Shown here: one piece after another, positions 33,559 to 62,986 of the stretch
How positions within the stretch are numbered: the stretch's first letter is position 1
Layout: every line of letters starts with the position of its first letter
Assembly (NCBI GenBank): GCA_022385805.1
Contig: MU277746.1
Span: 62,001-126,000, forward strand
From: Pilatotrama ljubarskyi
Taxonomy: Eukaryota; Basidiomycota; Agaricomycetes; Polyporales; Polyporaceae
Reading direction: 5' to 3'
DNA length: 64,000 bases
Notes under the pieces: model-generated
What the model was told of the DNA's origin: nothing
Seen by the model: the letters and a program-made list of their open reading frames with translations, nothing else
Databases searched by the model: none
Made by a program: the position numbers and the translations under genes

Positions 33559-34888
33559 CTACCTGACGAATTTCTTCAAGTGAGTGAACCCTTCCCATGC
33601 TACCGCGACGGTGTCGTTCAACACTCGACCGATGGCCGGCTCTGACCTAGGAGCTAGACGCCACCGATACACATGCTTTCCAAGAGAGTCGCGAGTTTCT
33701 TCCCAGTGCGCTAGGGCGTCGTCAGCAGTTGGCCTAAGTTCCGGTTGCACCTGCGTCATTCGTTCGACCAAGGGTTTCAGGAAATGCATGTTGTTGTACT
33801 TCTACGAGGGACGTTCAGCGAGAGCCCTTACTAGTTTGCTAACTTGTACTGACCTCTTCAAATTCCTGCGCATACAGATTTCCTAACGCGAAGATGTCCA
33901 CCTTGTAAGCGTCGTACGGAATATCAGAAGACAGCTCCGGCACATCGGTGTCGCGACCGACGTCTCCGACAACGTAAGAGGAGACGCCTGGAGGGAAATA
34001 GCAGGCAAGTCCAAAGTCGATGTAGTAGTATTGCATCTTCCTGTTGGTCCGCGGTAGTGCAGTGATTGGATGGATGGCATCCGGCGTATGATCTAGTCGA
34101 ACTGGATGGTGGCCATCCGGGTATAGAGCCTTCGCGTCCATCATGATATTCTCGACTGCGATATCACTATGGGCCGATGAGTGGTTGATCTACGTGTAGT
34201 ACTTGATGGACCTACCGATGCACGATGTTATGCCTGTGCATGAAGGCCAAGCCCTACGCCCCCGGGACGTGTCATGCGAGTGCGGTACCCACTCCGGGTG
34301 ATTGACGTACCTCGAGGGTTTGCGTGATGAAGTCGATAGCTTCCCCGACCGTGCCAAACCCCGGGTCATTGCAGGGCCGCAGGTAGGGCATGACCATCAA
34401 TGACAGCATAGGGTCGAACGGGTCGTCGAGTATACGAAGCACAGGGACGCTATGGTTCTGAGGATCCTGAGTGGACGACAGGAATTGGGCAATCTGCAAC
34501 TCCTGACTGTCTTTGCGGAACTTCTTTATGGCGACGAGCTCGTTTGTATCGCTCTGTTTTGCGTCCATGACTTGATGGTCCTGTGAGAGGACACTGAGTT
34601 GAAACGCTCGTTCCGGAAGCGTAAAGACTCAAAACGTACCATTTGCACGATAGAGTCCTCGCAATAAATGGGATCCAGTCGCGTACCGACCCACGAAGGC
34701 TCCCAGTTCGGCCAATATCGAGGTCGTAATACGAGACCATTGTCAAGTAAGTACTTATGGCGGTCTTTCCAGAAGATCTCGGATGGTATGAGGCCATAGT
34801 TGCCCTTGAGGGTCGAGCATCTATAACGCTCCGCTTGTTCCTCGCTCACGAAGACATAGTGGGGTAGCCGTTTGCCCTGCTTAGACAT
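33559..34888 (-). CDS. Protein kinase-like K1 (array pair 1)
   Basis: Five exons: 34888-34640, 34580-34311, 34253-34216, 34166-33854 and 33801-33559. They sum to 371 codons in frame. The N-terminus (KRLPHYVF, STLKGNYGLIPSEIFW) and a family block RPRYWPNWEPSW plus YCEDSI replace a glycine loop. The kinase core is then clear: ELVAIKKF with the beta-3 Lys, LMVMPYLRPCND at the hinge, GLAFMHRH, the catalytic HRD split by an intron (VHR then DIAVENIMMD), YIDFGLA (metal-binding DFG), VPELSSDIPYDAYKVDIFALG in place of the APE region, and ELRPTADDAL. The tail WRLAPRSEPAIGR and DTVAVAWEG is shared by all copies. Catalytic residues are present, so an active kinase is plausible. Head to head with T1. Confidence 0.85.
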
Positions 34889-34977
34889 GCGTGGAGGACG
34901 AGCAAGTCGAAGATGGGGTTATTGAGGGCATCGGGTATTGGACGATTGGACCTCCACTCAGGAGTCTCTGGAACGTG

Positions 34978-35015
34978 GACGAAACGTGTTTTCCAAAGCA
35001 GGTCAGTATGTTCGC
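34978..35015 (+). promoter_or_regulatory. Array intergenic motif, pair 1
   Basis: ACGTGGACGAAACGTG is followed by GGTCAGTATGTTCGCA. This is the pair 1 version of a motif found 99-124 bases upstream of six K starts. It may be a promoter element or, as GTCAGT is donor-like, a 5' UTR splice site for T1. Confidence 0.5.
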
Positions 35016-35369
35016 ACCTCCCGGAACGCTCGGTCCTAGGACTCGTCCACACAGCCTCGTACTCGCAGAATTCTCGGTGCGCGCCCACACTGAGTCAGGC
35101 GACTGCTTGTGAGTAACTCGTGAGATGGGGCTTGAATCTGACCCGTAATCGTACCGATACACGTTTCGTACACGTTCCCGAGGCTTTGCGCATAGACGCC
35201 ACTGCTGTGGCTTAAATGGCTTGCCCGCGTTATCGCTGAACCGCGCCGACTCCAATCAGGCCGCCTTAGAGCGGCGAACGCACCTCCTGTTCCCGTGGTT
35301 TGTAGCCAACCCACGCGATTCCGGACCTGCTGGCATCGCTGCCGCGGCCAAGCGACTGCTCGCATCGAC

Positions 35370-36669
35370 ATGTCACAGGTTGGCTACAACATCTGGGGAG
35401 TCGTTGCCGGTGCTATCGGGACGTTCACGATCCTACCCACCATCGCTCTCTGGATCCTCGGTAGCCGTCCGACTTCGAAGCTGAAAGTCCTGGAGGCTCT
35501 TCTGGACGAGACGGAGAAAATGTTCCAGCAGAGCATCGAGGAAGGCCTCATCCATGACGAGGACGAGCTTGCACGGCTCCATGCGTGGTTATGGATGTAT
35601 GTGCCGTGTACCTTCGTTCAGACTTAGTAACCATCGCTCATGCTCTGGTCCAGGATCAAAGTTCGCGTTGACGATATGCGGTTGCATGTGTACCAGATCC
35701 ATACATGGAAGGATGAGCTGGCGGGCTGGTGGAATGGTTTGTCAGGCAAGATCGACATCATCTACCAGAGTACCTCCAAACTTCGTACCAAGATTACGGT
35801 GAGCTTCTCGTTTCTTCCTTCGCTACAGATAGTCGCTTATGTTAGCCATGTCGGTAGAAAACCAGCGTTAGAGAGCGACGCGCACTAGCAGCTGCGGGTC
35901 ATACCTCAAAGCTGGCCTCTTTATCGGCCATACGAGGTGCGCTTGTCGTAACGCAAGCCAGTATGCTTTCGTGGTGGACTCACATTGCATCCTCACAGGG
36001 CGCGCTGTGCATTCTCCTCCGCCCTATTCGCTCGGATCACTTCAGCTGGAACCGTTGGGACTTGGTGCACAACCTCTCGCGAGCCTTGTCCCGCCCTTCT
36101 CATCCGAGCGGGGCTTCCCCTCTGCAGCTCAGGCGCCCGCCGCCCTGGAGAGCACGGAGTTGGGCGCAGATTTGCCTTGTCGGCCAAGCCCCAACCAGAA
36201 CTTGCCTCTTACTCCTTCATCGATGCCCCGCGAGATGTCCGGCGTGCCGGATGAGTGCGAACACGCACATGCGACGGAAGTGGATCCTCCGTGTCATGTC
36301 TTGTCCGATGCAGACCTCAAGGATCTGCTGTCCCTCGCCCTAGCGGAGTCTAGGGCTTGTGCTCGTGCGGACGACGTTGAACGTCGTCGCCGACGTGCGA
36401 CCCGGCAAGACCTCCTGCAGAAGTTCGGCCGAGAACTGTTTGCTCCGGGCTCCTCGTCCGGCTCCGGCCGCGAGAGTGTGCTTCCCAAGCGCACTGCCGG
36501 AGGTGGTCGTTTCAAGGCGTTCTCCCGTGTCTTGAGCCGCACGTACGGTGTACCCGCACGAGGTAGTCCCAGTGGTGCCCGGTGCACTGATCTGGACCCG
36601 CAGTTGCCCGAGCCCCAGCTTGCTGGGGATGACGCCTGTGACGGTGATGAACCATGGCTCGACGTGTGA
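35370..36669 (+). CDS. Membrane-anchored helical protein T1 (array pair 1)
   Basis: Four exons, 35370-35596, 35654-35798, 35858-35936 and 35999-36669, sum to 374 codons in frame. The N-terminus MSQVGYNIWGVVAGAIGTF continues as a single glycine-rich hydrophobic helix, followed by charged helices (LDETEKMFQQSIEEGLIHDE, VRVDDMRLHVYQIHTW, WWNGLSGKI). Exon 3 encodes RERRALAAAGHTSKLA. After a Pro/Ser linker the conserved C-terminal module reads LSDADLKDLLSLALAES, RRRATRQDLLQKFGRELF and RFKAFSRVLSR, ending DGDEPWLDV. No signal peptidase site is evident, so a membrane-anchored or membrane-inserting protein with a cytosolic body is likely. I do not recognise a described family. Confidence 0.75.
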
Positions 36670-37564: not shown

Positions 37565-38901
37565 TTAGGTGACATATTTCTTCAAGTGACTGATACCCTC
37601 CCATGCGACCGCGACGGTGTCGTTCAGCATCCTACCAATAGCAGGTTCTGAGCGAGGAGCTAGGCGCCAGCGATACACGTTTCTGCCCAGAGAATCGCGG
37701 ATGTTGTGCCATTGCACTAGAAGATCGTCGGGAGGTGGTCTGAGTTCTGGTTGCCGCTGCTTCATGCGCTCGATCAATGGGGCGAGAAAATGGACGTTGC
37801 TGTACTTCTACAAGGCAGGATTAATGAGGGACGTCGACTTGGCTGCGTTGTCACGCACCTCGTCGAACTCCTTCGCGTAGAGGTTCCCCAGGGCGAAGAT
37901 GTCGACTTTGAAGGCATCGTACGGGACACAGGAGGAGAGCTCTGGGACTTCTGTATCGCGGCCCACGTCTCCGACGACGTAAGGAGACGCTCCTGGCGGG
38001 AAATGGCAAGCGAGCCCAAAGTCGATGTAGTAGTAGTGCATCTCGTGGTCGGATCGTGGAAGAGCCTTTACAGGGTAGATGGCGTCCGGTGAATGATCGA
38101 GACGAACTGGGTGGTGACCGCCCGGGTATAGAGCTGTGCCGTCCATCATGATGTTTTCCACGGCAATGTCTCTACGTCCGTCAGTTTGCTCGACTGCACA
38201 GGAGGCGACGACATCATACCGATGCGCTATCCGATGCCTGTGCATGAACGCGAGACCCTGCAGAGAGGACAGTTGGACAATGTCAAGTGCCGGGCTGTAT
38301 TTATCTGGGATTCTAACGCACCTCCAACGTCTGATTCACGAATTCGATGACATCCCCGACCGTACCAAAGTCAGGATCGTTGCATGGACGGAGATACGGC
38401 ATAACCATGAGGCACAGAGTTGGGTCAAAGGGGTCGTCCAGAATGCGAAGGATCGGAACAGTGCGGTTCTGAGGGTCACTGAGAGACGAGAGATACTCCG
38501 AGATCTGTAGCTCTTGAGTATCTCTGCTAAAGGTCTTTATAGCGACGATCTCCTTGTTGTCGCTCCGCGTCGCGTCCATTACCTGATGGTCCTGCATTGA
38601 CTCCCGTTGATTGTCAGTACGGCCAGAGTGACAGAAAATCACCGACCACGAGGACTATGGAATCTTCGCAGTATATGGGATGTAGATTGGTCCCCAGCCA
38701 TGATGGTCTCCATTTGGGCCAATACCGAGGTCGGAGGATGTATCCGTGGTCATGTAGATATCGTTGACGTTCCCTCCAGAAGATCTCCGAGGGTAAGAGG
38801 TCGTAGTTGCCGTTGAGTGTGGAACGTGTATATTGCTCTGCGCGCTGGTCGTTCGTGAAGACATAGTTGGGTAAGCGCTTCTGCTTTCCCGGCGCAGACA
38901 T
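37565..38901 (-). CDS. Protein kinase-like K2 (array pair 2)
   Basis: Same five-exon plan as K1. N-terminus MSAPGKQKRLPNYVF, then RPRYWPKWRPSW and YCEDSIVLV. The first intron donor reads GTCGGT, weaker than in other copies. The core has EIVAIKTF, LMVMPYLRPCND, GLAFMHRHRIAHR joined to DIAVENIMMD, YIDFGLA, VPELSSCVPYDAFKVDIFALG and ELRPPPDDL, with the tail WRLAPRSEPAIGR and a stop at 37565. All catalytic residues are kept. It groups with K1 and K7. Confidence 0.85.
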
Positions 38902-38983
38902 GTGCTGAGGTCAAGTAAGGCGGAGGACGCAAGCGGAGTGCATTCCGTACGAGATGCTGCACCTAGCAGCGTCCAGCGACGTA

Positions 38984-39022
38984 GACGAGACGCCCTTCCC
39001 GAAAAGGCAAGTAGGTTCGCAT
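38984..39022 (+). promoter_or_regulatory. Array intergenic motif, pair 2
   Basis: AGACGAGACGCCC is followed by GGCAAGTAGGTTCGCA, about 107 bases upstream of the K2 start. Confidence 0.5.
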
Positions 39023-39345: not shown

Positions 39346-40573
39346 ATGTCGGACTTCGGGTATAATCTATGGGGCGTTATCGCAGGGGCTCTTGGCACCC
39401 TTGGTCTCATTCCTGCTCTCGCGTTCTACTTCCTCGGTCGTTTTCCCACAGGAAAATTAGCCACTTCGGAAGACTTGCTCAAGGAGACCGAGAAGATGTT
39501 CCAGGAGGCGGTCAGAGACGGCCTCATCTATCGCGAAGACGATCTACAGCGCTTCCACGCATCGTTCTGGAGGTATGTGGCGTACCCATGTTTTTGACCA
39601 TCTAGTACCCTGTTCAATCGGGCCCGTAGCATTAAGGTGCATCTTGACGACGTCCGCCTCGAAGTGTACGCAATTCGTACATGGAGAGACGAGATCGCAA
39701 GTTGGTTGGGTGGCTTGTCTGGCAGAATCCACATCGTCTACAAGGACACATATATACTGCGGACAAAGCTTGCGGTGAGCGGATCCTCTGTCTTCGATGG
39801 GCCGTAACATTGACCGGCTACTACGCAGAGGACAAGCTCAAGACAGCGACGGGCCCTCGCCGCAGCAGGTCACACCTCGAAGCTCGCGTTGTTGTCCAGC
39901 ATGCGAGGTGAGTAGAGTTTGTAAACGCAGTACCTACATGGAAGTGAATTAGTTCTGTTCAGGTCGCGCATCACACAACACCCCATACCTGATGTCGCAC
40001 GTTTTACCTTCGCGCACGCCCTCCATGACGAGACTGCATGACGCGAATCTCCAAGCTTCGACCCCTGCGTCCTCTAGTGGTGGACCGCTCTCTGCTTCCG
40101 CCCCTCGATATGCTACAAGAGAGGATCTCCATGCATCTTCGGACGAGGCTCCTGTCGCGGACAAGGACGGGAACTCGCTTCCATGCGACGATACGGTGCC
40201 TTCCGCGGACCCGCCGCCTCATCTCATCTCGGATGAGACTCTGAAGCAGCTCCTATCTCTTGCACTGGCGAATTCCACTGCTTGCCGTCATGAGGATTAT
40301 CGGCAACGTCGTCCTTATGCCACGGCCCGACGGCAGCTCCTGCTCCGCTTCGGTACGCAGCTCTTCGGCCCTGAGACTGCTCCTATGCACATCGAAGTCC
40401 TCCTTCCGACACGTAGCCCCAAACGTTCCCGTTTGAAGGCTCTTGGTCGCCTTTTCAGACGCGAGCGCTCTGAGCGCCCTCAGGATATCTACAATACTGC
40501 ACAAGGTGCAGCTCATTCGGACGTATCGCCTCAGCTCGTCGGGGACGAGGGGGATGAATGGCACGACGTCTAA
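39346..40573 (+). CDS. Membrane-anchored helical protein T2 (array pair 2)
   Basis: Begins MSDFGYNLWGVIAGALGTL. Exon 1 ends FHASFW with donor GTATGT; exon 2 (39630-39774, 145 bases as in other T genes) encodes VHLDDVRLEVYAIRTWRDE; exon 3 encodes RRALAAAGHTSKLA. The last exon carries LISDETLKQLLSLALANS, ATARRQLLLRFGTQLF, RLKALGRLFRR and the end GDEWHDV at 40573. Same topology as T1: one N-terminal hydrophobic helix and a helical, partly disordered body. The gene appears intact. Confidence 0.75.
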
Positions 40574-40820: not shown

Positions 40821-42060
40821 TCATCCCCCGCGATAGGACAATGGTGATCTACACTCACGGCACCGGGACAACATCGCCATTGCTGCGGCCGGAACAAGGA
40901 GCTCATATGCTGTAGGCCACAGGTCTGGCTGGTGCTGCTTCATCCCTTTGATGAGCGCTCTCAGGAACTTCCATGGTCCAACCGCGTTACTTCTGTCCTG
41001 ACCATTCCGTTCGCGTACCCTCCTCTGTGGCATTGAAGCACTCACCTGTTCGAACCCCTTCGCATGTAGTTCTCTAGCGAAAAGGTCAATGTTGAAGGTG
41101 TCGTGCGATACGGTAGAGGAAAGCTCGGAGAGCTCAGTAGAGTCACGACCACATTGCAGCCGACGAGATGAGAGAACCGTGTGGGAACCAGCACGACAGC
41201 CAAAGTGAATGCAGATGTACCGTGCACCGCGGCCCGATCTAGGCAGAAGAGTGCCGGGGTCGATGTCATTGGGTTTATGATCCAGTTGGGCAGGGTGATG
41301 TCCGCCTGGATAGAGTGATGTGGCGTCCATTTATGAGTTTTGGCACCTCCGGATATGCGGAAATGCCTACAGAAGATGTAAGCAAAGCAACGTGGGCTGG
41401 ATAGGTGCGAGCTGACGGGCGACTTTATGCTTATGCATGAATGCCAACCCTATGTAGTTCCGAACTCAGCCTGTAAGGAACGCTAGTAAGGGGTGCGAGA
41501 GCTGTGGGGCACCTCCAGTGTCTCGTTCACGATCCACAAACTCACTACATAACCTCTCCAACAACTTTGCCGAGCTCAGAATAAGTAGCTGCATGGGCGA
41601 AGGTAAGGCATTACCATGAATGCAAATTTGTGTCGAACGGGCCCAGTCTTCCAACGCTTGCAGTATAGTACGTCCACTGTGGTTGTGGGGATGCCGGGTT
41701 GACGAACGAAGCTGAGTGCATCTTCTAGTTGTCCTTTGCGAACGTCTCATGGCAACGATACCCTTGTCGCTGCTGCGTCTAGCGTCCATGAATTGGTAAC
41801 TTGACAAACCGGGGTCAGTCAACCGGAAAGTGATCGCCAGCGCGAGTTCCGTACCGCTTGCAATGTTTGTGAGTCCTGGCAGCGAATGGGGTGCAAGTTT
41901 GTGCTCAACCCTGATTGTTTTCGGTTTTGACCGTAGTGCGGTCGAAGGACATTACCGGCGTTGAGTAGGAAGCGTTTCCGCTCTCTCGCGCCCGCAGGCC
42001 CCGGTTGGTATACCTCTCAACGTGGATCTGGTATCAGAATATTCAGTGTTCGCCTCATCC
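40821..42060 (-). pseudogene. Kinase pseudogene K3 (array pair 3)
   Basis: A decayed copy that can be followed across most of the gene. From about 42,035 on the minus strand there is STLRGIP, then RERKRFLLNAGNVLRPHYG and STNLHPIRCQDS, matching the N-terminal block of intact copies, but no usable start. The beta-3 motif is changed to GIVAMRR, so the usual AIK context is lost. The HRD exon is not recognisable. In the next block MDATSLYPGGHHPAQLD is retained, but the DFG region has become IHFGCRAG. The last part reads ALIKGMKQHQPDLWPTAYELL and the WRL-SEPA tail is absent. Frame is interrupted several times. Its partner T3 also carries a lesion. Confidence 0.8.
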
Positions 42061-42530: not shown

Positions 42531-43811
42531 ATGTCCGACGAGGGGTACAACCTCTTTGGTGCGATTGCAGGCGGTATCGGCATCGTAACTGTATTCCCCC
42601 TCCTTGCGTGCTGGTTACTGAGCCAACTTCCTACGGCGAAAATGCGCGAGCTCGACCAAATGCTATCGGACACTGAATCACTCCTTGATTCCTCTGTTCG
42701 GGAGGGCCTTCTCCACGGAGGCAATGATTTCCAACCATTCCGCGTCAGATTGTGGGCGTAAGTCATGACCGCGATACTGTACATGCCCCACAGCCTTCTC
42801 ACGCCAGCGTAACAGAGTACAGCTTCGCGCCGATGACTGCGGGGTAAACTGTACGATGTCGATACGTGGAAAGAAGAATGGGACTCTTGGTGGAAGGGTT
42901 CGTCCGGCGCCATTAGACTCCTCCGAACGGAGCTCAGCAAGCTGCGAGTTGCGCTGGTGGTAAGTTTCGATGTGTTTCTCTTCTCCTCTCACTAATTCGA
43001 CTCCTTTGCAGAAACACAGCTCCACACAACGCCGGAAGCTCTCTTCCACGGGGCACTTGAACAACATCACATATTTTGCCGGTATTCGAGGTCTGTATCC
43101 GTCTACATCATGTTAGCACTATTCACTGAAGCGCTTCAAGGCTGGATATTTGGACCATTCTTGAGCTCTGATCAGCCAAGTGCGCCATCTCGTTGGCAGC
43201 ATCCGACTCCTCAACCGATGGCGACCGATTGTGACATACACGCCCGCTCCGAATCGCAGGATTACTTCCCGATGCCCGCTTCTGCCAGCATATATGGTAC
43301 AGCACATCCCGGACATACCTCGAGATGTGGCCTGCATTGCCGTCCTAGTGCCATGTCCCCTTCGCCGCTCGCCACTCCTTCCTGCGCGACTCCGGACGGA
43401 TCCACCATATGTGGCTCTTGCACAGGCGGGAGCGACTCAGGTGCAGAGCATCACATCGTCTCTGCAAAGGACCTGCAGGAAGTTCTGTCGCTTGTCATAA
43501 AGCATCAAGTCCGACGACGGGGGAGTGTAAGCAAGCGTCAACGTGCTGTACAGCAGGCGCTCCTTCTCCGCTTTGGCCGGCGGCTGTTTGGTTCCGGCGC
43601 CGCCAACGGGTGCCCGGAGGGCCTGGCGCAGATGGGGCACACCCAAAACAATCGCATCAAAGCCATCCGACGATTCATACAACGCACGACCGAGGTGCAC
43701 GCACATGGTTTCGCGGCCTACAGCAATGAAGATGGTCGCCGATGGGAGCCCCTGACCACTGAGCTTGTCTCCGACGATGAATGCGACGGCGAAGAGTGGC
43801 ACGACGTCTGA
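42531..43811 (+). pseudogene. T3, array pair 3, with a one-base deletion in exon 2
   Basis: Exon 1 (42531-42757) is intact and begins MSDEGYNLFGAIAGGIGIV. Exon 2 spans 42816-42959, 144 bases, where T1, T2, T5 and T7 all have 145. It starts AVQLRADDCG, then loses frame near 42,840 at TGCGGGGTAAAC; the expected continuation KLYDVDTWKEEWDSWWKG is present one frame over. Exon 3 and the last exon (ISA-type HHIVSAKDLQEVLSLVI, RAVQQALLLRFGRRLF, EEWHDV) are still open. Unless the missing base is a sequencing error or rescued, the product would stop early after the N-terminal helix. Confidence 0.75.
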
Positions 43812-44921: not shown

Positions 44922-46262
44922 CTATCCGACAAGCTTCCTGAGACGATATACTCCCTCCCACGCGACGGCGACGGTGTCGTTGAACATGCGCTCGATAGCC
45001 GGCTCGGATTTCGGGCCCAGTCGCCATCGGAAGAGCGACTCATCGAGGTCCGCGCGAATACTCTCCCATTCCCGGAGGACTTCCTCGGCGGTAGGCCTCT
45101 CCTCTGGCCGACGCCGCTTCATCTTGTCGATCAGCGGCACCAAGAAATCCATGCTGTTGTAACGCTGTACGTGGGTCAGGCATCGCGTGGACGCGACGTT
45201 GCAGGCTTCTCACTTGTTCAAACTGCTTGGAGAATAGGTTTCCTAGCGCGAAGATGTCTACCTTGAACGCGTCGTACGGGACGTCGTGAGATAGCTCTGG
45301 CACGTCTGTGTCTCGTCCGACGTCCCCGACGACGTAGGGAGAGCCGCCTCTGGGGATATGAACGGCCAGTCCGAAGTCGATGTAGTAGTATTTTATCGAG
45401 CGACCGATCCGAGGCGAAGGGGTTACTTCACGAAGCGCGTCCGGGCTGTAATCGAGACGCACTGGGTGGTATCCATCTGGATAGAGAGGTCTCGCGTCCA
45501 TCATGATGTTCGCAACTGCGATGTCGCTAGATGAGACATCAGAAACAACATTCAACATGGTGTAGTCTTCAATGGCCCACCGATGCGCAATCCTCAGTCT
45601 ATGTAGAAATGCGAGACCCTGCAAGGGATTCAGTATGTTCTGGAACGAGCGTGGACGGACCCTTGACTCACCTCGATCATCTGGTTGATGAACTCGACAA
45701 CATCTCCTACCGTGGAGAATTCTGGGTCGTTGCAAGGCCGCAGAAAAGGCATGACCATAAGGGAGATGTTGGAGTCGAAGGGATCTGGTAGGATGTCATA
45801 GACATGTACAGCATGGTTGGCAGGATCTTTGATAGAGGAGAGAAATTGCGCAATCTTGAGCTCTTGACTGTCGTTCCGACACTTCTTTATAGCAACGAGT
45901 TCGTTGTTGACCTGACGTCTAGCATCAATCACCTGGTGATCCTACATGCGCGATAGAAGAGGCGTCAGTACGCACGTACAGCGACGACGTTTCGGCGAGG
46001 CGCCTACAACGAGCATTATTGAGTCCTCGCAATATGTGGGGTCCAAGTTGGTGCCAATCCAGGATGGCTTCCATTTCGGTGCATAACGCGGTCGGAGGAG
46101 GAGTCCAGAATCTTTCAAGTATTGGTGACGTTCTCGCCAGAAGACCTCGTACGGTAGTAGATCATAATGGCCCAGTCGAGTGGACTTTGCGTACTGTTCT
46201 ACGCTCTCAGGATCGAGGATGGCGTAGCGAGGCACCTTCTTATGTTTGTCCTGTGCTGGCAT
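44922..46262 (-). CDS. Protein kinase-like K4 (array pair 4)
   Basis: N-terminus MPAQDKHKKVPRYAILD, then RPRYAPKWKPSW, TYCEDSIMLV, ELVAIKKC with the beta-3 Lys, LMVMPFLRPCND, GLAFLHRLRIAHR joined across an intron to DIAVANIMMD, YIDFGLAVHIPRGG, VPELSHDVPYDAFKVDIFALG and ERPTAEEVL. The tail is WRLGPKSEPAIER and stops at 44922. The intron between the HRD halves (about 45,590-45,530) includes an extra in-frame stretch and is longer than in other copies. In the catalytic loop the Glu before Asn is Ala (VAN, not VEN). DFG and the HRD Asp are kept. Head to head with T4. Confidence 0.83.
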
Positions 46263-50969: not shown

Positions 50970-51038
50970 AGGGCGAGTACGGACAGATGTAAGCACATTG
51001 GGCGCGTGCTCCGCTGCAACTCCGCTGCTTGCAGAGCC

Positions 51039-51082
51039 AACGTGGGGAAAACGCGGTGCCCAGAATGGTAACTGAGTTCGAG
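51039..51082 (+). promoter_or_regulatory. Array intergenic motif, pair 5
   Basis: CAACGTGGGGAAAACGCG, then GGTAACTGAGTTCGAG, about 99 bases upstream of K5. The most diverged copy. Confidence 0.45.
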
Positions 51083-51442
51083 TCATTGGGAGCGCCCTCG
51101 ACACAGCGTCTGGCCATGCAAGGACCCCCAGAATCCGAGATGCGACTTTAAGCAGGTCGTCGGATACACGCCACGGCTTTCCAGCACCCCGAACCCCTCG
51201 TCGTCATCTTCGGTCTCTATACATGTGTTTGGTATAGGAATCTTCTGTGGGCGATGATATTGATACACGCGGTTCCCCACGTTCCAGCCGTGCTAGCAGC
51301 ATTCTGGTCCTGCCTCACACTGGTTGTCAAACGGTCGCATTCAAATATCACGAAGACTCCTTCCCCACAGCTGCGCCTTGCTAGGCTCCGTCGCCCTCAC
51401 TGTCTTTGACTACTTCATCATCTCTGCTCTACCCCTACAGCA

Positions 51443-52717
51443 ATGTCTGACCTAGGTTGGAATGTCTGGGGCGCCATCGCGAGCGTACTCGGCACGCTCG
51501 GCCTCCTCCCGCTCCTCCTTGCCTGGTTTCTCTCCCGCTTACCATCAGCGAGATTACCAGCTTTGCTGGACCTCATGAAAGAAACCCAGGACCTGTTCTC
51601 AGCCGCTCTCCGCGAAGGCCTCATCACTGATGAGAGCGACTTACACCAATTTAACGTCAACATCTGGGCGTAAGAGCCTTTCAGGCGTTCCAATGTGTGG
51701 CGTCAGCTAACTGATCATACTTCCTGTCGCTTTTTCTCGTCAGTGCCATGATCCGTGTCGACGAAGTCCGTGAGCTGGTTTACGCCACCAACTCCTGGCA
51801 AGAAGACGTGGCGCACTGGTGGCGAGGCTGGTCTGGGAAAATGGCGATCATCGCCAACGACCTCAACAGCATCAGAGTGAAGCTAGCTGTGAGTACGATG
51901 CGAAAGTCTACTATAGCGTACTCGTACTCACGCATCGCTTGTTTGTGTAGAAGAGGCACTCGAAGGAGCGGAAGAGACTGGCGGCGGCATGCTCCCCATC
52001 CGGCCTGCCGTTGCCAGAAAACAGCAAAACCGGTCAGTCCATCCTGTTTTGGCTCGGTCGCCATTGTGTAACCAGAACCATGCAGAGACATCACCTTCCC
52101 TCAAGCCTACGTCGCATGGCGCGAGTCCTTGTCTTGTACTCCCTCAGGAGAAGCTATTCCTAGACGGCTCTGGTCGAGCACAGGACTCCTCGCGAGCTTC
52201 TCATCCGATGGTACGGGACGTCGTGGACACTCCTGGCGCTGGGCGGTCTCGTGCCTGTGAGCCCGCCACCGTTGACTACGGCGACACTTGCGATCCCCGA
52301 GCCATTTCACCCCGCTGCGCGACTCATGCACCCAGCATCGAGGTTGCGTCGCACCATCTGATCTCCGACGCGGATTTGAAGAGTCTCCTGGGTCTCGCCT
52401 TGTCGCACTCCCTCACGCACATGGAGAGAGGCGCACGAAAGAAGAGAGCGATGCGACAAGACTTGCTCCTGCGCTTCGGCAGGCAGCTCTATGGAGGAGG
52501 ACACGTTCCGGCCTGGCCGGGCACTGGTGCGATGCATCCGAAGCCGGCTCATCCGCAGAGCAGCCGTCTCAAGTCGCTCTCGCGCCTCTTGCGGCGTACC
52601 TGGGATGGCTATCCAGGAGATGGGATGGGGTGGAATGCTCGTACTGTTCTCGAAGGATCAGTGCTTCTAGTCGCTCCTGAGGGAGGTGGCGATAGCGACG
52701 AGTGGGTCGATGTGTGA
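51443..52717 (+). CDS. Membrane-anchored helical protein T5 (array pair 5)
   Basis: Begins MSDLGWNVWGAIASVLGTL, hydrophobic through LLPLLLAWFL, then LMKETQDLFSAALREGLITD. Exon 2 is 51744-51888 (145 bases): MIRVDEVRELVYATNSWQED, WWRGWSGKM. Exon 3 encodes KRHSKERKRLAAA. The last exon carries LISDADLKSLLGLALSHS, RAMRQDLLLRFGRQLYGGG, RLKSLSRLLRRTW and ends DSDEWVDV at 52717. Intact and closest to T6. Confidence 0.76.
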
Positions 52718-54474
52718 TGGAGGTGTCCTCATCCTCCGTTGCGACTCGTCCAGCTACCTACTTCTCTTGTCTGATGGCCGAGCCCGCCACAGAACCGCCG
52801 TCCGAACAAGGATATGTACACATCGATCCGTCTACTCCCATTGTTCTCCGATCCGTATCAAGCATGCATGCCTTTTACACGTTTAGCGGATGGTTGCACC
52901 GTTGTACTAGCCATCGCGTCCCGACCTATTTATTCACAACGCGTCTTTCGTCATGGAATGGAGCGGTATGCGGTGTACAAGCGGTGGCGCTGGCAGCTTC
53001 ATCGGTGACCGAGCGTAAGCGCCCCAATCCACAGCCAGCAAGACCAGGCAGGGCCGCGACAAGCCTCTACCTAGCGACCGTGCAGTGTGGCGGAGCACTA
53101 AACGGTACCACGATGGACTGCACATGCTCTGTTTCGTGTACCATCCGATGCTGGCCGCATGAATCTGTGCAGCACTGGCAGGAACATGGGGCATGCCTGT
53201 ATACGCCTTAAGCGAGCCTGACCGCGAGCACAACGCGGCCATGCCGATCCTGGCGGACACCAGCCGCAGCTGACGCGTCCCACAAACGTGACGCAATCAA
53301 CCGCTTGCCACGGTGGAAGTAGTTCTAAAGGTACACACTGCCCCGCAAGCTTCTCATGATGCGCCCATGTTACATGAGGCTTGCTTCTATTCGAAGTGCC
53401 CCTCAGAAGCATCTGATTTCGCTCACTCCTGTCCACGCGTGAACACGACCTCGAGGATAGGGAAAAGGCCCGGGAACCTTCGCACCAGCGGCCAACGCTA
53501 CCATGACGGACGCGCGAGCCATGGGGCGGTACCACCAGGACCATCGTTGGCATGTCGGCTTCACGCTCACCCATTTCATGTCTGCCAGGAACATCCGCGA
53601 TTTGTGAACCCCAACACGACGCATCTCTTTCAGAGGCCTAGTAACACATGGGCCATCAGCGTATCTGAGAGGACATCTCAGTGCGGCATTCTGCTCGTTC
53701 CCGCGCATCTGACCCCCGATGCCGTGGGACTATAAGTCAGTATGTACAGACTACACGTGCAATGTCGCGTACTGACCTGTATGGGCAAAGGAATCGCAGG
53801 CCAGTCCGCGTCGAGATGCTTGGGGGACGGGTTACATGGCAGCGGATGTTGCCGGGGCGACAGCCTGTATACAGTCATCAACCCGTCGTTACAGCGTACA
53901 ATAGGACTAGGGGCCGCGTGAACTCACCATGATTGGATGCGTCTCCTTGAACGCAGTGCATTCATGCACGTTCGAGCAGTATTGCCGATACCCCCTTGTC
54001 GAGCGTACTCACCTAAGCGAACGTAGACCATGTCGCTCTCTCACCGTCGGAGCGGTCGCCCAGCACGACGCGCTTTCGGAAATACGTTGCTGCTATCGCG
54101 ACCACATACAGTACCGGATGTCTTCAAGATTCTATGATACAGCAGTATGCCTTGAGTGCTGGTGTGGCCAGAACATGACCTCTCGTGCATGATCGGTGAT
54201 AGATATACATTCCTATGATGCCTGCGTAAGTTCGGTGCAATGACCATTTCATGAGCCCCTACCGGTCTCTAGCCCGTGTGCGAGGGATCCCACAACGAGT
54301 ACACAATACTATAGATGCGGACGAACGAGGCTGAAGGTATGCGCGACTGAGCGAGGTAGCGTGACGATAGCAAGGAGGTGTGAGCGACAGTGGCAGACGG
54401 AGCACGGATTTCGGAAGCGATGTGAGCTTCAGGTGGCAGCGCGAGCAGCATACGAAGACCAACCGAGTAACGTG
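52718..54474. other. Spacer between pairs 5 and 6
   Basis: Holds the second copy of the spacer repeat and, from about 54,020, a stretch matching 49,190-49,630. No supported gene. Confidence 0.5.
53120..53470 (+). repeat. Array spacer repeat, copy 2
   Basis: See copy 1. Shows GGCGGACACCAGCCGCAGCT, GGTGGAAGTAGTTC and CTTCTCATGATGCGCCCATG. Confidence 0.7.
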
Positions 54475-55808
54475 TCACTTTACAAACTTCTTCAAGCGGT
54501 ATACGCCCTCCCAAGCGACTGCGACAGTGTCGTTGACAACTCGATCGAAGGCTGGTTCCGCTTTTGGCGCTAGTCGCCAGCGGAAGAGGGACTCCTTGAT
54601 CGTCGCCCGTGTCTTCTCCCATTCTCGGAGGATTTCTTGCGCAGTTGGTCGTAATTCCGGCCGTCGCTGTGTCATAGGTTCGATTATGGAAGGCAGGAAA
54701 TCCATGTTGTTATACTTCTACGCTTAGAGTCAGACACGGACTCTACATCTCTCGGTGCCAGAGACTTACCATTTCGAACTCCTTGGAGTATAGATTTCCA
54801 AGAGCGAAGATATCGACCTTGAAGGCATCGTATGGGACGTCGTCGGATAGCTCCGGAACATCTGAGTTCCTGCCGAAATCCCCGACCACGTATGAAGAGG
54901 ATGACTCAGCGAAGTGGGAGGAAAGCCCAAAGTCGATGTAGAAGTAGCGAACACCTCGACCAGCTCGGGGTAATGCCGTAACCGGATACAGCGCGTCTGG
55001 AGTGTAGCCCATACGTATTGGATGGTGTCCCGACGGATAGAGCGGCTTAGCGTCCATCATGATGTTTGCGAATGCTATATCGCTACATTGATCATTGTCC
55101 AGGTGACTGTACGATCGCCTAGTGTGAGCCTTACCGATGAGCTACACGATGTTTGTGCATGAAGACGAGACCCTGCAGAAGAGTTATCCATAATATTCTG
55201 TTAAACCACACATTTCGACTGACCTCAATCGTCTGGTCAACAAAATCGATGATGTCGCCTATGGTAGCGAAGTCCGGATTGTTGCAGGGTCTGAGGTAGG
55301 GCATGACCATCAATGCTAGTTGTGAATCGTGTGGATCCGGGAGGATTTCGTGTATTGGAACGCAGTGATTCTGAGGGTCGCGAATAGAGGCGAAGAACTG
55401 CGCAATGTGCAACTCCTCTCCGTCTTTCAGGAAGGCTTTGATAGCCACCAGTTCGCGATTCGAGATCCTGGTCGCATCTATGACTTGATACTTCTATATG
55501 GTAGTGCGCGGCGTCAGCGAACGAATGCCGAGTACGGTAGGGATACCACTCACGACCAGCATGATGGAATCTTCGCAGAACGTAGGATCAAGGTTCGTGC
55601 CTATCCAGGAAGGCTTCCAGCCAGGTGTATACCTCGGCCTCAGCTGGTAGCCGTGGTCCTTCAGGTAATTGTAATGCGCTTCCCAGAACAGCTCTTTCGG
55701 CATGAGATTGAAGAGGCCCTCGCGCGTGAGCTTCGCGTAGCGTTCCACAGAGTCGTCATCCAGAACAGCATGGTTAGGGAGCCGCTTCTGCCTGACTGGC
55801 GCGGACAT
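54475..55808 (-). CDS. Protein kinase-like K6 (array pair 6)
   Basis: Starts MSAPVRQKRLPNHAVLD, then GLFNLMPKELFWEAHYNYL, RPRYTPGWKPSW and TFCEDSIMLV with a clean GTGAGT donor. Next are VAIKAFLKDGEEL, LMVMPYLRPCNN, GLVFMHKHRVAHR, the catalytic exon with ANIMMD, FYIDFGLSSHFAES, VPELSDDVPYDAFKVDIFALG and ELRPTAQEIL. The tail is WRLAPKAEPAFDR, stop at 54475. The residue before the catalytic-loop Asn is Ala as in K4 (AFANIMMD on the exon start). DFG and the beta-3 Lys are kept. Confidence 0.84.
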
Positions 55809-56231: not shown

Positions 56232-57526
56232 ATGTCTGATTTGGCTTGGAACGTCTGGGGTGCCGTCGCAGGTGTCATCGGGATCATCATGGTGGTCCCG
56301 GTCCTCTTCACTTGGTTCCTTTCCCGGATGCCTTCTGCAAAGCTACCCCCTCTGCTCGAGCTGATGAAAGAGACGCAAGATCTCTTTGCCGTTGCCCTCC
56401 GAGAAGGCTGCATCACTGATGGGGACGAATCCTACCAATACAGCCTCAACATCTACGCGTGAGTGTCCCACTCGACTGCCTCCGTTATTTGGCGTCAAAC
56501 GTCTCATAACGTGTGCGCCTCTCTTATCCCTTTATTAATACCCCATAGAGCGGCCATACAAGTTGACGAGGTGCGCATGAAGGTGTACGCCGCCAAGACG
56601 CTGCCGGAAAACATCTCAAACTGGTGGCACGGGCTCTCCGGTCGGATCAATGCTCTTCAGGAGGAGCTGAGCGGTATCAGAGTGGAGCTCATCGTGAGTC
56701 GCTCACTGGCGTAAAATCGATTGTATGTTATCTCACGCCACCTCGCGTTCGCATAGGAAAAGCACTCTAGGGAACGGAAAAAGCGAGCGTCTCAGGCCAA
56801 CTTCTCGTCCTTCTCGTCGGACAGCAAAGGTCTGCTCTCCTCTGATGTATCCGTAATGCGCCCCTCATACGGCAATATACAGGACCGGGACAAATCGTCC
56901 TTGCTCCCACTGGCCTAGGGCAGAGCCCCCTATGCTCATCGCATCTCGGCCATGATGCACCGGTCACCCACTTCATGCACGACGTGCCTCGGCCCGATCC
57001 AAACCCTCCTGTACCGCCCGCCACAATGGATAGGACGTGTTTTTGCACAGCAAGCAGTCCCGGTGGGCCACTCGTGCCTGCAGAAAATCTTGCCTGCCGC
57101 TCGGCGTGTCCCCCGGGCGTGAATCCTGCGGCAACAACTCGTCCCACCCATCACCTCATCGCCGACGCCGACCTGCAAGGCCTACTTTCCCTCGCGTTGG
57201 CTCATCCTGCCCTTCCAACCGGTGGCGGCAAACGTCAGCGAGCCGCCAGGCACGAACTCCTCCTGCGGTTTGGGAGGCAATTGTGGGGAGGCGACCATCT
57301 TTCTGTTGCAGGACACGACGCGCCGACATACCACAAACGGCATCCAAAATGCGCCCGCATCAAGGCTTTCTCGCGTCTCATGCGGGGTGCGTATGCCTCC
57401 AGCAAGGACTCTCCATTTGGCACGCTTTCTGAGAACGCTTGCCATCACTGCCCTGATGCAGACTCGCGGATGGACTCGCGCTGCTCGCACACAGACTGCG
57501 ATGGTGACGGGTGGGAGGACGTCTGA
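56232..57526 (+). CDS. Membrane-anchored helical protein T6 (array pair 6)
   Basis: Begins MSDLAWNVWGAVAGVIGII, hydrophobic through VVPVLFTWFL, then LMKETQDLFAVALREGCITD. Exon 2 encodes IQVDEVRMKVYAAKTLPEN and WWHGLSGRI; exon 3 EKHSRERKKRASQANFSS. The last exon carries LIADADLQGLLSLALAHP, RAARHELLLRFGRQLWGGD, RIKAFSRLMRGAY and ends DGDGWEDV at 57526. Intact by reading; pairs with K6. Confidence 0.75.
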
Positions 57527-59339
57527 GAGATCCGCGCACCCTTGTTCTATCCCCATCCTGCCTCTCCTAGCCCTATGCGTGCGCTATTGGCCATTGTGAT
57601 GTCGGCGTCGGCGTCATACCGGCTCTTCGCCACCCTCGCCACACTACTACTGCTGGAGATCCAACGGCCCGTCCTTCCTCTCTTCTTACGCTCTTCTCAC
57701 TTCCGTGTGTTCCTGCTCTTAGTTTTGTCGCATGTCCCAGCTCCGAAGTGCTTCCCCACTGTGATACGTTATCTCAGGGTGTGCATGTACGAGTGCTGTG
57801 ATCCCGCTGAGTATCTGATAATCTATATCTCGGAGCACAGCGTGAGAAAACGAGGTACGCTCAGTCGGAGGCCCTCCTCTGACCTTTGCCAATGCCAGGA
57901 AGTTATAACCAAATTTCCAGGCCGGATGCTCTAACTCTTTGCACTCTGCGTCACGAAGCAGGCAAGGTCTCGTATGCGAGGGGATGGGATCTGCCTCGAT
58001 CCGTGTGAGGTTTCTGCAAGAGACAGCATAGACGAACATTCACATGACGCCACCATTTCGGGGTCGCCTTCTGGCCGTCCCCTACTGTGAGTCTGACATT
58101 CTCCCGAGTGCGACTCATGCGAGAGCTCCTCCGCTCTGCATCCTGTCCGATGCCGCTCGCATGAATCTGTGCGGCACACAGCCGGGGTGCCTGCCTGTAC
58201 ACGCGCCAAGCCTGCCTGACAGCTAGGACGATCCGCGCGACTATGGGGCCGATGCTGGCGGACACCAGCAGCAGCGGACGCGTCCTACAAACATGACTCG
58301 GAGCAACCGCACCGCTCATCACGGTGGAAGTACTGCTGCAGGTACGCACCGCCCCTCAAGCTTCTCGTGATGCGCCCATGCTACATGAGGCTCGCTTCTG
58401 TTCCAAGTCCTAGGTGCTTTTTGGAAGCATATGGTTTCATTCATGTCCCCGCGGGAGGACAAGCGCAAGGATGAGGAGATTCGCCATGGTGCCCGCGGCC
58501 TCCACGTTGCAAGCTGAACGCGAGTCATCGGGCGGTCGTGGAGGTATACTGATCGTGCCAGTGTCTGCGCGTGTCCTTCGGCTGCTATCCCTACATCCCT
58601 CCTAGGAATGGCAGCCTTTCTCGTTGCGGAACAAGGTAGAGCGTATGGGTGATCAACAGGTGTCCGTGGCAATCGTTGCCCTGCGATTGCATCAGTATAT
58701 GCCGGACGCGCCTTGCGACGTACTGACCTCAAAGTAGGCGCTCTCAATGGTTGAGCAGCGCAGATAAAGGCGCAGCAGCATCCGACGCAGCGTGGTGCAT
58801 GCGCACTGCTCGGGCGTTGTCCGGGACACCAGGCCTGCCCCAGGCCATGGTGTAGCAATCGGCCCGTCGAAGCAGCAGAAGGGGACGTGGGGATTGAATA
58901 ATTGAACGACGGACCTGACATTGCCAGCAGTGCTTAGATGGGTCTAGCACGTATGATGTGGTGTTGCGACTGCCGCTGCGACATCCTCCGAGAATGCAGA
59001 CTGCCGCGTCGCTCGCCTCGGGAGCGTGGACATCGTAGGCGTTGGGAGATAGGACTGCCCATACACAGTGGTAGGGTCGGCTTTCCGGCTTCAATGAAGT
59101 AGTGCACTAGAATCCACTTGAAGCGGTGAGTAATCTGGTCGCTGTGGCTGTGGGCGTCGTACTGCCAATGGACTTACCAGATCGATACGGGTCACTTCAA
59201 TGCTACTCGAGTACTGGTGCGGCGATCTGTAGACCAATGTCACACAGCTTGCAAAACAGACATGCAGGATAGCAGAAGTGTGGCACACCATGTAACGATT
59301 GAAAAGCGGGCTTGATATTCGGGTCTAAATGTTGATGGT
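57527..59339. other. Spacer after pair 6
   Basis: The longest spacer of the array. Holds the third spacer repeat copy (58,035-58,470). 58,500-59,339 has no supported gene. Confidence 0.45.
58035..58470 (+). repeat. Array spacer repeat, copy 3
   Basis: See copy 1. Shows GGCGGACACCAGCAGCAGC, GGTGGAAGTACTGC and CTTCTCGTGATGCGCCCATG. Confidence 0.7.
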
Positions 59340-59770
59340 AGAGCACTCGTTCAGGTCCACGCGTAGATACTCCCAATTCAAGTTCCGGAGTAGTTGAGAT
59401 GCCGTCGGACGCAGTTCTAGACGTCGTTTTAGCATCGGTTTGATCAAACGAGGCAGGAACTGCACGGTATTGTACTCCTGCTGATTCGTTAGCTACGTGT
59501 GGTCCACGACAGTCAACATGAAGAGTCACCCACCCGTTCGAGTATGGATTACTGGCGTAGACATTGTCCTCGAAACAAGGGTAGGAAACACGTGTCGAGG
59601 ACTGCAGCACTCCTTTGCCTCGTCCAGCACGAAAGAGTCCGCAGGAGTCAGCACAGTTCCCCAGGCATTAGTGTGCGTCATGGCGGATCGGTAAGACAGG
59701 ATCACCGAGTCACTATCGTCGGACGCGGGACGGTAATAATACAGGATCATGTACATCCGACCCATACAAC
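59340..59770 (-). pseudogene. Remnant of an eighth array kinase
   Basis: On the minus strand 59,475-59,320 reads EYNTVQFLPRLIKPMLKRR and LELRPTASQLLRN and then stops, a clear match to the start of the last K exon (KYNNMHFLKPLVERM, ELRPTADDAL). The preceding DNA keeps a trace of the previous exon (YASNPYSNG against FALGNLYSKEF). All N-terminal and catalytic exons and the WRL-SEPA tail are gone. No matching T gene remains. Confidence 0.7.
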
Positions 59771-59925
59771 GTCAAACCGAACGTCGCCCAGGTAGGCGGG
59801 GGAGCAAGAGCCACAGATGCTGTCGAGAGCGAAGAGCAGCAGTACTATATCCAGGATATGCTTGGATACCCATCAGATAGTGACAGTAGGTAGGGGAAGA
59901 AACACCCACAGATCTTGCAAAGGGG

Positions 59926-61265
59926 CTACCTGACGAACTTTGTCAGGTGACTAATTCCCTCCCACGCGACAGCGACGGTCTCGTTGAACATTCTCCCTAT
60001 CCCAGGTTCCGACTTCGGCCCAAGGCGCCAGCGGTCCATAGACTTGTTAAGAGAGTCGCGGATGTTAATCCACTGAGTGAGAAGCTCGTCGGCCGTAGGT
60101 CGCGCCTCTGGCCGCGACTGCTTCATCCGCTCAATAAGCGGTAGCAGGAACTGCATGCTGTTATATTTCTGCGCTATGCGGTGAACGAGAATGTCCACTA
60201 TGCCGCCTGCCGGACGTACCTCTTCGAATTCCTTTGAATATAGGTTCCCTAAGGCGAAAATGTCGACCTTGAACGCGTCGTACGGGATATCTGAGGACAC
60301 CTCCGGGACCTCGGTGTCGCGCCCGACATCGCCGACGACGTAATGGGAAGAGCCCTCGGGGAATAGGCACGCGAGACCGAAATCGATGTAGTAATAGTGC
60401 ACTCTGTGCTCCGCTCGAGACAAGGGCGTCACTTTGTGGATAGCGTCAGGTGCATACCCTAGTCGTACGGGATGGTGGCCGTCCGGGTACAGCGCCTTGG
60501 CATCCATCATGATGTTCTCCACCGCGATGTCGCTGTAAAGAGTCTTAGCGAGCGAGAAAAGGAGAATATAAGGTAGTTTGAGTGCACCGATGAGCGATAT
60601 TCTGACTATGCATGAAAGCGAGACCCTGGCTCAGGATGAGAGAGAGGTCTTTCAGTAGCCACGATCATGGACGTACCTCGAGGGTCTCGTTCACAAATAA
60701 GATGACATCTCCGACCGTCGTAAACTCTGGATTGTTACACGGGCGGAGATACGGCATAACCATCAGGGAAAGGCCCGGTTCAAACGGGTCGTCTAGGATT
60801 TCGAGAATGGGAACAGTGTGGTTGCGTGGATGTTTCAGTGAGGAGAGTAGCCGTGCAATTTGCAGCTCCTGGCTGTCTCTTCGGAATGTCTTGATAGCGA
60901 CCATGTCCTTCTCCTTAGACCGTCTGGCATCCATCACTTGGTAGTCCTGAGCGTAAGGCGAAGCTTGAGCTGAGGCGTAGTGCTATCGGTCATCCCAATG
61001 GGTAACTTACGACGTGGACTATGGAATCTTCACAGAACGCCGGCCGCAAGTTTGTCCCTAGCCAAGAGGGCTTCCAATTAGGCCAGTAACGAGGTCTCAA
61101 GACGTAGCCATGATCCAGTAGGTATCGCTGACGCTCTCTCCAGAATATCTCAGAAGGGAGGAGATCGTAATTGCCTTTGAGCGTCGAACGCGCATAATGC
61201 TCTGCCGTTTGGTCGTTCAAGAAGACATATCGGGGTAGCCGTGTCTGCTCGCCCGGTGTAAACAT
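59926..61265 (-). CDS. Protein kinase-like K7 (array pair 7)
   Basis: Start at 61265 (MFTPGEQTRLPRYVFLN), chosen by alignment; the frame is open 39 codons further. Then STLKGNYDLLPSEIFWRERQ, RPRYWPNWKPSW, AFCEDSIVHV with donor GTAAGT, MVAIKTFRRDSQELQ, LMVMPYLRPCNN, GLAFMHSQNIAHR, DIAVENIMMD, YIDFGLACLFPEG, VPEVSSDIPYDAFKVDIFALG and EARPTADELL. The tail is WRLGPKSEPGIGR, stop at 59926. The 51-base last intron has no stop and is a multiple of three, so retention would add 17 residues. Groups with K1 and K2. Confidence 0.85.
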
Positions 61266-61348
61266 AGGCTTAGAACGAGTACGGAGAAGGGCACAGATTC
61301 CAGTTGCATCAATTCCGCCATGATGCTGCAGCAGTAGCGAGGTCCGCC

Positions 61349-61395
61349 AACGTGGAGAAAACGTGTTCGCCAAAACAGGCAAGAAGGTTCAAACG
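61349..61395 (+). promoter_or_regulatory. Array intergenic motif, pair 7
   Basis: CAACGTGGAGAAAACGTG, then GGCAAGAAGGTTCAAA, about 115 bases upstream of K7. Confidence 0.5.
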
Positions 61396-61759
61396 TTATG
61401 GGTCGTCCCCTCACCCGCACCGCACTCTTCCATGAACCTCTCAGGCTGCAACCCTCCGGCCCCGCGCGGCCACCTCCGAAATCCACTAGCTTGAGATGGA
61501 TGCTGATGCACTGGAAGCCTTCAGCCTCCGTGGGCACATGCCGCATCTCGAATCTCTCGCTGGTCACCGCCATGCAACCTCCACGTTCCTGACACCGCGC
61601 CCGTTCTCACTGGCATACTAAATGGCCTTTCACTCACGTCTTGTGGACGATTTTCGCCCTAAGTCGTGCCTCCCGCAAGTCTCGCTGTAGAACCCAAGCC
61701 CCGTTGCGCCACACTTCTTCATCTGCCCTTACATCTCTTCGCTGCCGCACCGTGCTCAG

Positions 61760-62986
61760 ACGTCGGAGGCCGGCTATAACGTATGGGGCACGATCGCAGG
61801 CGTCATCGGCACTGTGGCCATTGTCCCCGCGCTCATCTATTGGTTTCTGGGTCGCATGCCGACATGCCAGCTACGCTATCTGGAGCAGTACCTCGCAGAT
61901 ACGGAGCGGCTGTTCAAGAACGGACTTGAACAAGGTGTCTTCCACCAAGAAGACGAGCTTCATCGGTTCCATGCCTGGTTGTGGATGTAGGCGACAATTG
62001 CATCAGTCGGCATGGTTTGCTGATATAAGTGTCATTCGTCAGGCTCAATGTCCGCGTGGACGACATGCGGGTTGAGGTCTACGAGATTCGAACCTGGAGA
62101 GATGAGCTGAAAGGCTGGGTAGACGGCCTATGTGGCGACATGTCTCTCATACAGGAAGAGCTGAACGCGTTTCGTGCAAAGCTAGCAGTACATACTGCTT
62201 CTCACGGAATGAGACGTGGCGGTAAACTAGTCTACATAAGAGTAGCTGCAGGGAAAGCAGAGCGTTGGCGGCGGCTGGATACACCAACAGGCTCCCCTCT
62301 TGGTCTAGAGTACGAGGTAAGCAGGATGCCTCAGGTGGCGGTCTATGCTAAGCCTCGCGTTTTCAGTTGAGTGGCTCAGTCAAGGGGCAACCGCTACCCC
62401 GCCTGCGACCCCAGCGCCGTCCGGGTGCACAAAAAACGCAGAAAACATGGCATCCTCAGAATACGACAAGAAGGCGCCCGTTGCCCGTGCCGCAAGTAGC
62501 GGAGAGCCTGCGAAATGCGTATATGGCGCAACAGGGCGACCTTCCTCCGCCCACAGCCTCGCGAAAGGCGATCCACGGCCCGTCATCCCGCACGCTCCCC
62601 CGTTTAACAACGCCAGTCCCGCGCCGATCCAGTACCTCCTATCGGACGCAGATCTGCAGAATTTGCTCGCGCGCGCGGCTCGCGTCCCTCCGTCCTCAGC
62701 CGACAACCGAAGACAGCGGCGGGCGAAGGAGCAAGACCTTCTGCTGCAGTACGGAAGGTTGTTTCATGGAACGCACCCGCCTACCCTTCGTTATGACGCT
62801 ACGTCTTCGAGGCTACACGCCAAGCGCAATCGCTTCAAAGCGTTCTTGCGCGCTCTACGGCGTTCGTACGGAGGACATCAGGACAGGTCCGATGCTGCTT
62901 GGAACAGTCGACTTGACAAGACGTCGCGGACTTTTCAGGTAATCGGGACCGAACTTTGCGACGAAGGAGGATGGTATGACGTTTGA
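61760..62986 (+). CDS. Membrane-anchored helical protein T7 with ACG at the start position
   Basis: Exons 61760-61986, 62043-62187, 62241-62316 and 62367-62986 sum to 356 codons with exon 1 (227 bases) and exon 2 (145 bases) of exactly the family length. The codon aligned with every other T start is ACG (ACGTCGGAGGCCGGC), giving TSEAGYNVWGTIAGVIGTV. No in-frame ATG lies upstream before a stop, and the next in-frame ATG (about 61857) would remove the hydrophobic helix. The rest is intact: LADTERLFKNGLEQGVFHQED, VRVDDMRVEVYEIRTWRDE, LLSDADLQNLLARAARV, RAKEQDLLLQYGRLF, RFKAFLRALRR and the end EGGWYDV. Either non-AUG initiation, a missed 5' exon, or a start-loss allele. Confidence 0.7.

Follow-up and report, generated by a model that had tools for sequence, protein, structure and literature searches.

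Arrangement of the kinase and partner genes

The window analysed here is a stretch of 64,000 nucleotides from the basidiomycete Pilatotrama ljubarskyi, positions 62001-126000 of contig MU277746.1 (C77) in a 33.1 Mb assembly of 173 contigs, to which the contigs called C106 and C122 below also belong. Between window positions 33559 and 62986 it contains seven head-to-head gene pairs and one kinase fragment. In each pair a protein kinase gene (K) lies on the minus strand and the gene for a single-helix membrane protein (T) on the plus strand. K and T form a real two-gene module, co-duplicated, old and unusually regular, in which the partner protein is undescribed. The spread and novelty of the module are provisional, all K and T comparisons having been made within this one genome.

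Gene models were obtained by splice-aware alignment, and the introns of the array models are of the GT-AG type and 48-90 bases long. The kinase gene is complete in six of the seven pairs: K1 (33559-34888), K2 (37565-38901), K4 (44922-46262), K5 (49636-50969), K6 (54475-55808) and K7 (59926-61265), all on the minus strand. All six have five exons and encode products of 368-372 amino acids. Exons 3, 4 and 5 measure 38, 313 and 240 bases in every one of them (the last without the stop codon), with 253-262 bases in exon 1 and 254-270 in exon 2. The catalytic residues are present, in K1 as VAIK, HRD and DFG. The corresponding plus-strand genes T1 (35370-36669; exons of 227, 145, 79 and 671 bases), T2 (39346-40573), T4 (46765-48034), T5 (51443-52717), T6 (56232-57526) and T7 (61760-62986) have four exons and encode 344-373 amino acids. 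Exons 1 and 2 measure 227 and 145 bases in all six. An initial annotation of this DNA had proposed the constant five-exon and four-exon plans, and both hold; it had given the 145-base exon for T1, T2, T5 and T7.

The start codons of K and T lie 423, 444, 473, 481, 494 and 502 bases apart in these six pairs, in agreement with the 420-500 bases estimated earlier. The value of 494 is counted to an ACG, which T7 has at the position of the ATG in the other T genes, and the start of T7 is uncertain. The initial annotation had also listed seven pairs of identical orientation, which is correct as to layout but requires a correction for pair 3, decayed in both halves. K3 (40893-42004, minus strand, extent of tblastn matches) is an eroded pseudogene with 27-34 % identity, stops and a broken exon plan. 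T3 (42531-43811, plus strand) has a one-base frameshift in exon 2 and keeps the tail end WHDV. The extra kinase remnant that had been reported was placed at 59343-59483 on the minus strand; it corresponds to the last-exon region (43-49 % identity in tblastn) and has no adjoining T. With K and T proteins as tblastn queries, no copy of either gene was found in window positions 1-33500.

A repeat of about 230-360 bp, 75-79 % identical between copies, lies downstream of T4, T5 and T6 (48461-48857, 53144-53465 and 58062-58411); it marks a duplication unit and is apparently noncoding. A third gene in the unit was considered and rejected: the 3' repeats shared by some units align in many frames and on both strands, and look noncoding.

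Further copies, age and selection

The array continues past the window end on C77, where the pair K8/T8 lies at C77:130.5-132.9k, at the contig end, and it has relatives on C122 and C106. Searches of the contigs of this genome gave 119 rows with K5 as the query and 32 rows with T2. Four pairs were found on C106, mirrored (K on the plus and T on the minus strand) and still head-to-head, and five on C122, where K122a, K122c, K122d, K122e and K122f each have a divergent T. The 38- and 313-base kinase exons recur in 10 of the 11 models outside the window, K122b being the one that departs. Exon 2 of T was 145 bases long at the first fit in eight genes outside the window (T122a, T122c, T122d, T122e, T122f, the copy of T3 on C122, T106a and T106d), and in T106b and T106c solely on refitting with the query cut at that exon.

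On C77, C122 and C106 a divergent T was present at 17 of 19 K loci (17 models, K3 and the remnant, with K3 and other broken copies counted). Conversely, 17 of the 18 full-type T loci adjoin a K; only the T3 copy on C122 does not. Full-type loci are strong matches to an exon-1 profile (E ≤ 2.4e-25), and window T3 was counted with its decayed K3. As the profile was built from these T genes, matches to them are no test, and only matches elsewhere are informative. Genome-wide T matches were confined to the same three contigs (32 of 32 rows, and 29 of 29 in a further search). Orientation and linkage are kept in old paralogues.

Short T-like frames without a K at C77:128606-129052 and C106:76212-76658 matched the T profile at E 7.4e-11, and two other frames marginally at E 0.13-0.16. 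The regions C77:126956-129052 and C106:76212-78357, inverted relative to each other and 94 % identical, carry two such frames in tandem, with a hydrophobic helix, core-like sequence and no adjoining kinase; the second frame is the one that matches the profile (E 7.4e-11), the first being marginal (E 0.13).

Six other kinases of the genome (two on C116, one on C112, two on C27 and one on C95) were inspected, and no T was found upstream of them at E ≤ 0.1, over about 1.6 kb or more in each case, the best match having an E value of 0.36. In an unrooted tree these six branch apart from 16 paired or partly broken K models with a support of 0.93; K122b was left out and C27a had 91 comparable sites. 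Genome-wide searches gave no T match, within the sensitivity of single-protein queries, on C135, C37, C160 and the rest of C95, where kinase matches occur. The tree supports a separation of the paired K from the six unpaired kinases. Two regions carrying a more distant kinase, C95:72001-74800 and C160:6703-9502, are identical over 2.8 kb, representing either assembly redundancy or a very recent duplicate.

Over the 16 pairs, identities ranged from 0.47 to 0.96 for K and from 0.19 to 0.89 for the T core, and even where identity is down to about 50 % for K and 25-28 % for the T core, the two genes remain divergently paired. Synonymous divergence (dS) between window paralogues was 1.8 or more, or saturated. 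The ratio of nonsynonymous to synonymous divergence (dN/dS, NG86) was 0.05-0.25 for K and 0.13-0.28 for T exons 1-2; 5 of 21 comparisons were dS-saturated and gave no ratio. For T exons 3-4, the two recent comparisons gave 0.64, and old ones, with dS near saturation, 0.18-0.44. These values show that purifying selection maintains K and the T core and that the T tail changes fast. The earlier suggestion that K and T were retained together through repeated duplication is thus borne out by old pairs that are still divergent, by constraint on K and the T core, and by a whole pair that differs as a unit (K4/T4, below). Distances between K copies and between T copies were correlated (over 16 pairs r = 0.87, a value reached in 0 of 5000 permutations; over seven closer pairs r = 0.75, reached in 8 of 5040).

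It is conceivable that the tandem duplication unit merely happens to hold two genes of independent function, one hitch-hiking passively with the other. Tandem duplication does copy neighbours, some units also share noncoding 3' sequence, linkage alone predicts matched K and T distances, and one partner alone has been lost in some copies. However, the pairs are as old as the dS values indicate, yet K and T are open with the same exon plan in six of the seven window pairs (the T7 start apart). The same plan and pairing also recur on other contigs, kinases of the separate branch have no T, and the T homologues are not dispersed across the genome. Independent genes would be expected to separate more often, and we regard passive hitch-hiking as rather unlikely.

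Three further observations were made to the left of the array. A direct duplication of 2.1 kb, 83 % identical, occupies window positions 11879-13972 and 17307-19398. A plus-strand frame at 29185-30513, about 3 kb left of K1, gave a partial match to CDC20/Fizzy WD40 (E 2.7e-20), scoring 73 bits where the cut-off is 200, and CFEM and lactonase matches lie at 4120-4767 and 10047-10679.

Properties of the K and T proteins

K5, which alone was scanned, matched the Pfam family PF00069 with 46.9 bits (gathering score 31.7, E 3.1e-12). Up to an E value of 10 the scan of K5 gave PF00069 and PF07714 only, with no match to the FunK1 profile (PF17667). The beta3 lysine, the HRD motif with the catalytic-loop asparagine and the DFG motif are present in all 17 K models from the three contigs. 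The six window kinases are without a hydrophobic stretch, their highest 19-residue mean being at most 1.14.

T consists, in order, of an N-terminal hydrophobic helix, a conserved core and a fast-evolving tail. One strong hydrophobic stretch was found in each of 16 T cores, within residues 7-30, with 19-residue means of 1.9-2.5. The segment before the helix has a net charge of 0 to -2 in 15 of the 16 (+1 in T122a), and the 20 residues past it a net charge of -1 to +2. Because of these charges on either side of the helix, the N-terminus may tentatively be placed outside, with the core and tail in the cytosol. No convincing Pfam family was found for five T proteins at E ≤ 1 (the best stray match had an E of 0.037), nor any kinase-like domain, and among PDB sequences there was no relative of T beyond noise. 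The predicted fold consists of helices at residues 4-32, 36-57, 64-79 together with 89-107, and 113-142, at low confidence (pLDDT 49.6, pTM 0.25). The input was the contiguous window translation, in which 19 of 143 residues are intron-coded and interrupt helix 3; this in part accounts for the quality of the model, which is too poor to compare with known folds.

The tail contains two conserved stretches; in six of the seven window copies an acidic stretch is followed by a W-x-D-V end, T4 being the sole window T that departs. Near the end of the frames downstream of older relatives a similar motif occurs, DSDEEWEDL at T106d and ESDDEWEDL at T122a. The strict acidic-tryptophan pattern occurs 27 times in 281712 six-frame codons, with overlapping matches and T's own counted. 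These motifs (DSDEWVDV, e.g. at window positions 52688-52714, and DSDEEWEDL) resemble the W-acidic motifs through which kinesin light chains bind cargo. By this analogy, it is possible that the tail motif acts as a transport or docking signal.

A kinase beside a protein with an N-terminal helical region that acts at membranes brings to mind RIPK3, which phosphorylates MLKL, and the fungal HeLo and HeLo-like modules. T could then be a HeLo/MLKL-type bundle whose N-terminal helix attacks membranes once phosphorylated by K, and the array an allorecognition or immunity locus. The hydrophobic N-terminal helix and the further helices of T in the low-confidence model, the adjoining kinase, the turnover and whole-pair difference described below, and the fast T tail would fit such an executioner. 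HeLo/MLKL-like domains are described as frequent in basidiomycete NLR proteins (PMC9815663) and some HeLo-like domains as fused to kinase or pseudokinase domains (PMC12881547); their link to MLKL has been reviewed (PMC10197012, PMC12881547). Unlike in these systems, however, T gave no match to HeLo, HeLo-like or MLKL profiles (five T proteins, Pfam, E ≤ 1) or to such proteins among PDB sequences, and had no kinase-like domain in the Pfam scan. The fold model, as noted, does not permit a comparison, and the T core is under purifying rather than diversifying selection. The T helix also looks like a constant anchor, whereas HeLo and MLKL proteins are soluble until triggered. An MLKL/HeLo-like role of T is therefore unsupported and attractive from the layout only, and we consider it decidedly unlikely.

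Turnover and proposed function of the pairs

In the explanation that we favour, and consider probable, the two genes of each pair form one signalling module. Duplication, divergence, loss and exchange would act for the most part on the module as a whole. It is reasonable to infer that the K and T products act jointly. T would serve as a membrane anchor whose core and tail face the cytosol, and the soluble K would be recruited to the membrane by its own T, as docking partner and/or substrate. The divergent layout would favour joint expression of K and T, and each pair may form a separate channel with its own input.

Several observations weigh against this explanation. The topology of T leans on the charges around the helix, which are weak evidence. 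A GxGxxG loop was found in none of the 17 K models (residues 61-110 scanned), and kinase activity of K is for this reason not certain; deviations in the glycine-rich loop do occur in active kinases. The matched K and T distances mainly reflect pairs that were not reshuffled and are no proof of interaction, because linked genes share their history. No promoter motif was common to 14 intergenic regions, in which k-mers did not exceed block-shuffled controls; the region between the start codons of pair 5 (50970-51442), an example of the 423-502 bp gaps, shares no k-mer beyond shuffles. Outside the window the K-T gaps are wider, up to 867 bases. Of 10 full-T tail regions, 4 carried the strict acidic-tryptophan pattern; T106a-c, T122c, T122d and the tail at C122:24.5k were without it. 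The unpaired kinases are 35-55 % identical to the paired K, a range that overlaps the 50-60 % between C106 and window K, and the unpaired set consists of the six kinases inspected.

There are also copies in which only one partner is present or intact. No T was detected beside K122b or the kinase remnant, and the T3 copy on C122 and the two short T-like genes have no K. T122f has two stops beside an intact K122f; K122a has a stop, and the modelled T122a exons have none. In the fits of T8 an in-frame stop falls close to the end of exon 2. With these copies, the initial claim that the two products must be balanced is not supported. Strict co-loss of K and T was likewise rejected, on K122a and K122f/T122f. 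The same copies bear on the idea of a guard or antidote pair, in which T would be harmful alone and K would restrain it, making joint inheritance necessary. Persistent divergent linkage would be expected of such a system, but T-family frames occur without a K (C77:128606-129052 and C106:76212-76658), K copies occur without a T, and T122f is broken beside its intact kinase. A guard/antidote relationship is in our view highly improbable.

Turnover of the pairs can be followed by comparing contigs. C122 is collinear with C77:104.2-119.6k at 89-97 % identity. Across K4/T4, identity drops from 93-98 % to 59 % at a point about 160 bases beyond the stop codon of K4; from about 1.2 kb beyond the T4 stop it is 88-98 % again. 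K4 and K122d are 66 % identical, T4 and T122d 43 %. At this collinear site the difference thus takes in the whole K4/T4 unit. An insertion of about 8 kb (C122:26354-34425), probably a DNA transposon, splits the copy of T3 on C122; it contains an open frame of 499 codons and is bounded by short inverted sequences. In addition, C106:75904-78610 matches C77:129360-126654 in inverted orientation at 94 % identity.

This turnover resembles that of recognition loci more than that of housekeeping genes. It is possible that interchangeable K/T pairs here make up a highly polymorphic recognition locus, with C77 and C122/C106 as two haplotypes and each K matched to its own T at the membrane. Were this true, whole pairs would differ between haplotypes, as K4/T4 and K122d/T122d do between flanks of 88-98 % identity, and a mismatch or trigger would set off a reaction by which, for example, a foreign nucleus is rejected or a defence mounted. 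Allelism of C122 and C106 with C77 is favoured by the collinear stretches and by one stretch on each outer side that is single-copy. Against it, the genome has one Homeobox_KN locus only, and the two mid-size contigs that were sampled are both single-copy, a situation compatible with segmental duplications in an assembly that is collapsed or stems from one nucleus. We hold a recognition locus with two haplotypes to be unlikely.

Among known systems, the nearest architecture, by analogy, is that of the matA locus of mushrooms. Its HD1-HD2 pairs are typically divergent and their products interact. Like the K/T array, matA holds at one locus several paralogous pairs that share an origin, have diverged and each consist of two different genes, and three HD1-HD2 pairs are described for Coprinopsis (PMC12387193). 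The likeness does not extend to homology: HD1 and HD2 are homeodomain transcription factors, whereas K is a kinase and T is without a convincing Pfam match. The single Homeobox_KN match over the cut-off in this genome lies on C103, not on the array contigs. Paired plant NLR immune receptors are also encoded head-to-head, act together and are kept paired through duplication. The two genes of the K/T pair share the divergent layout and the retention through duplication, but paired NLRs belong to one family, whereas K and T are unrelated and neither is an NLR.

FslK kinases are described as fungi-specific, expanded in Agaricomycetes, with catalytic residues kept and mostly no extra domains (PMC3937382). 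By description only, K is similar to them as a member of a large mushroom-fungus kinase family with retained catalytic residues; the excerpted text of that source mentions no membrane partner or divergent pairing for FslK (PMC3937382). Among the open-access papers listed in literature searches, none was found by title or abstract to describe arrays of kinase/membrane-protein pairs, which is weak evidence, as most subscription papers lie outside that set.

To our knowledge, the roles of the expanded kinase families of mushroom-forming fungi are largely unknown, and the recognition genes of basidiomycetes outside mating are mostly unidentified. In this array, members of one kinase group are linked pairwise to an undescribed family of membrane proteins, which provides a concrete candidate partner for those kinases. 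If different haplotypes also turn out to carry different pairs, this would make the array a candidate locus for defence or self/non-self recognition in basidiomycetes.

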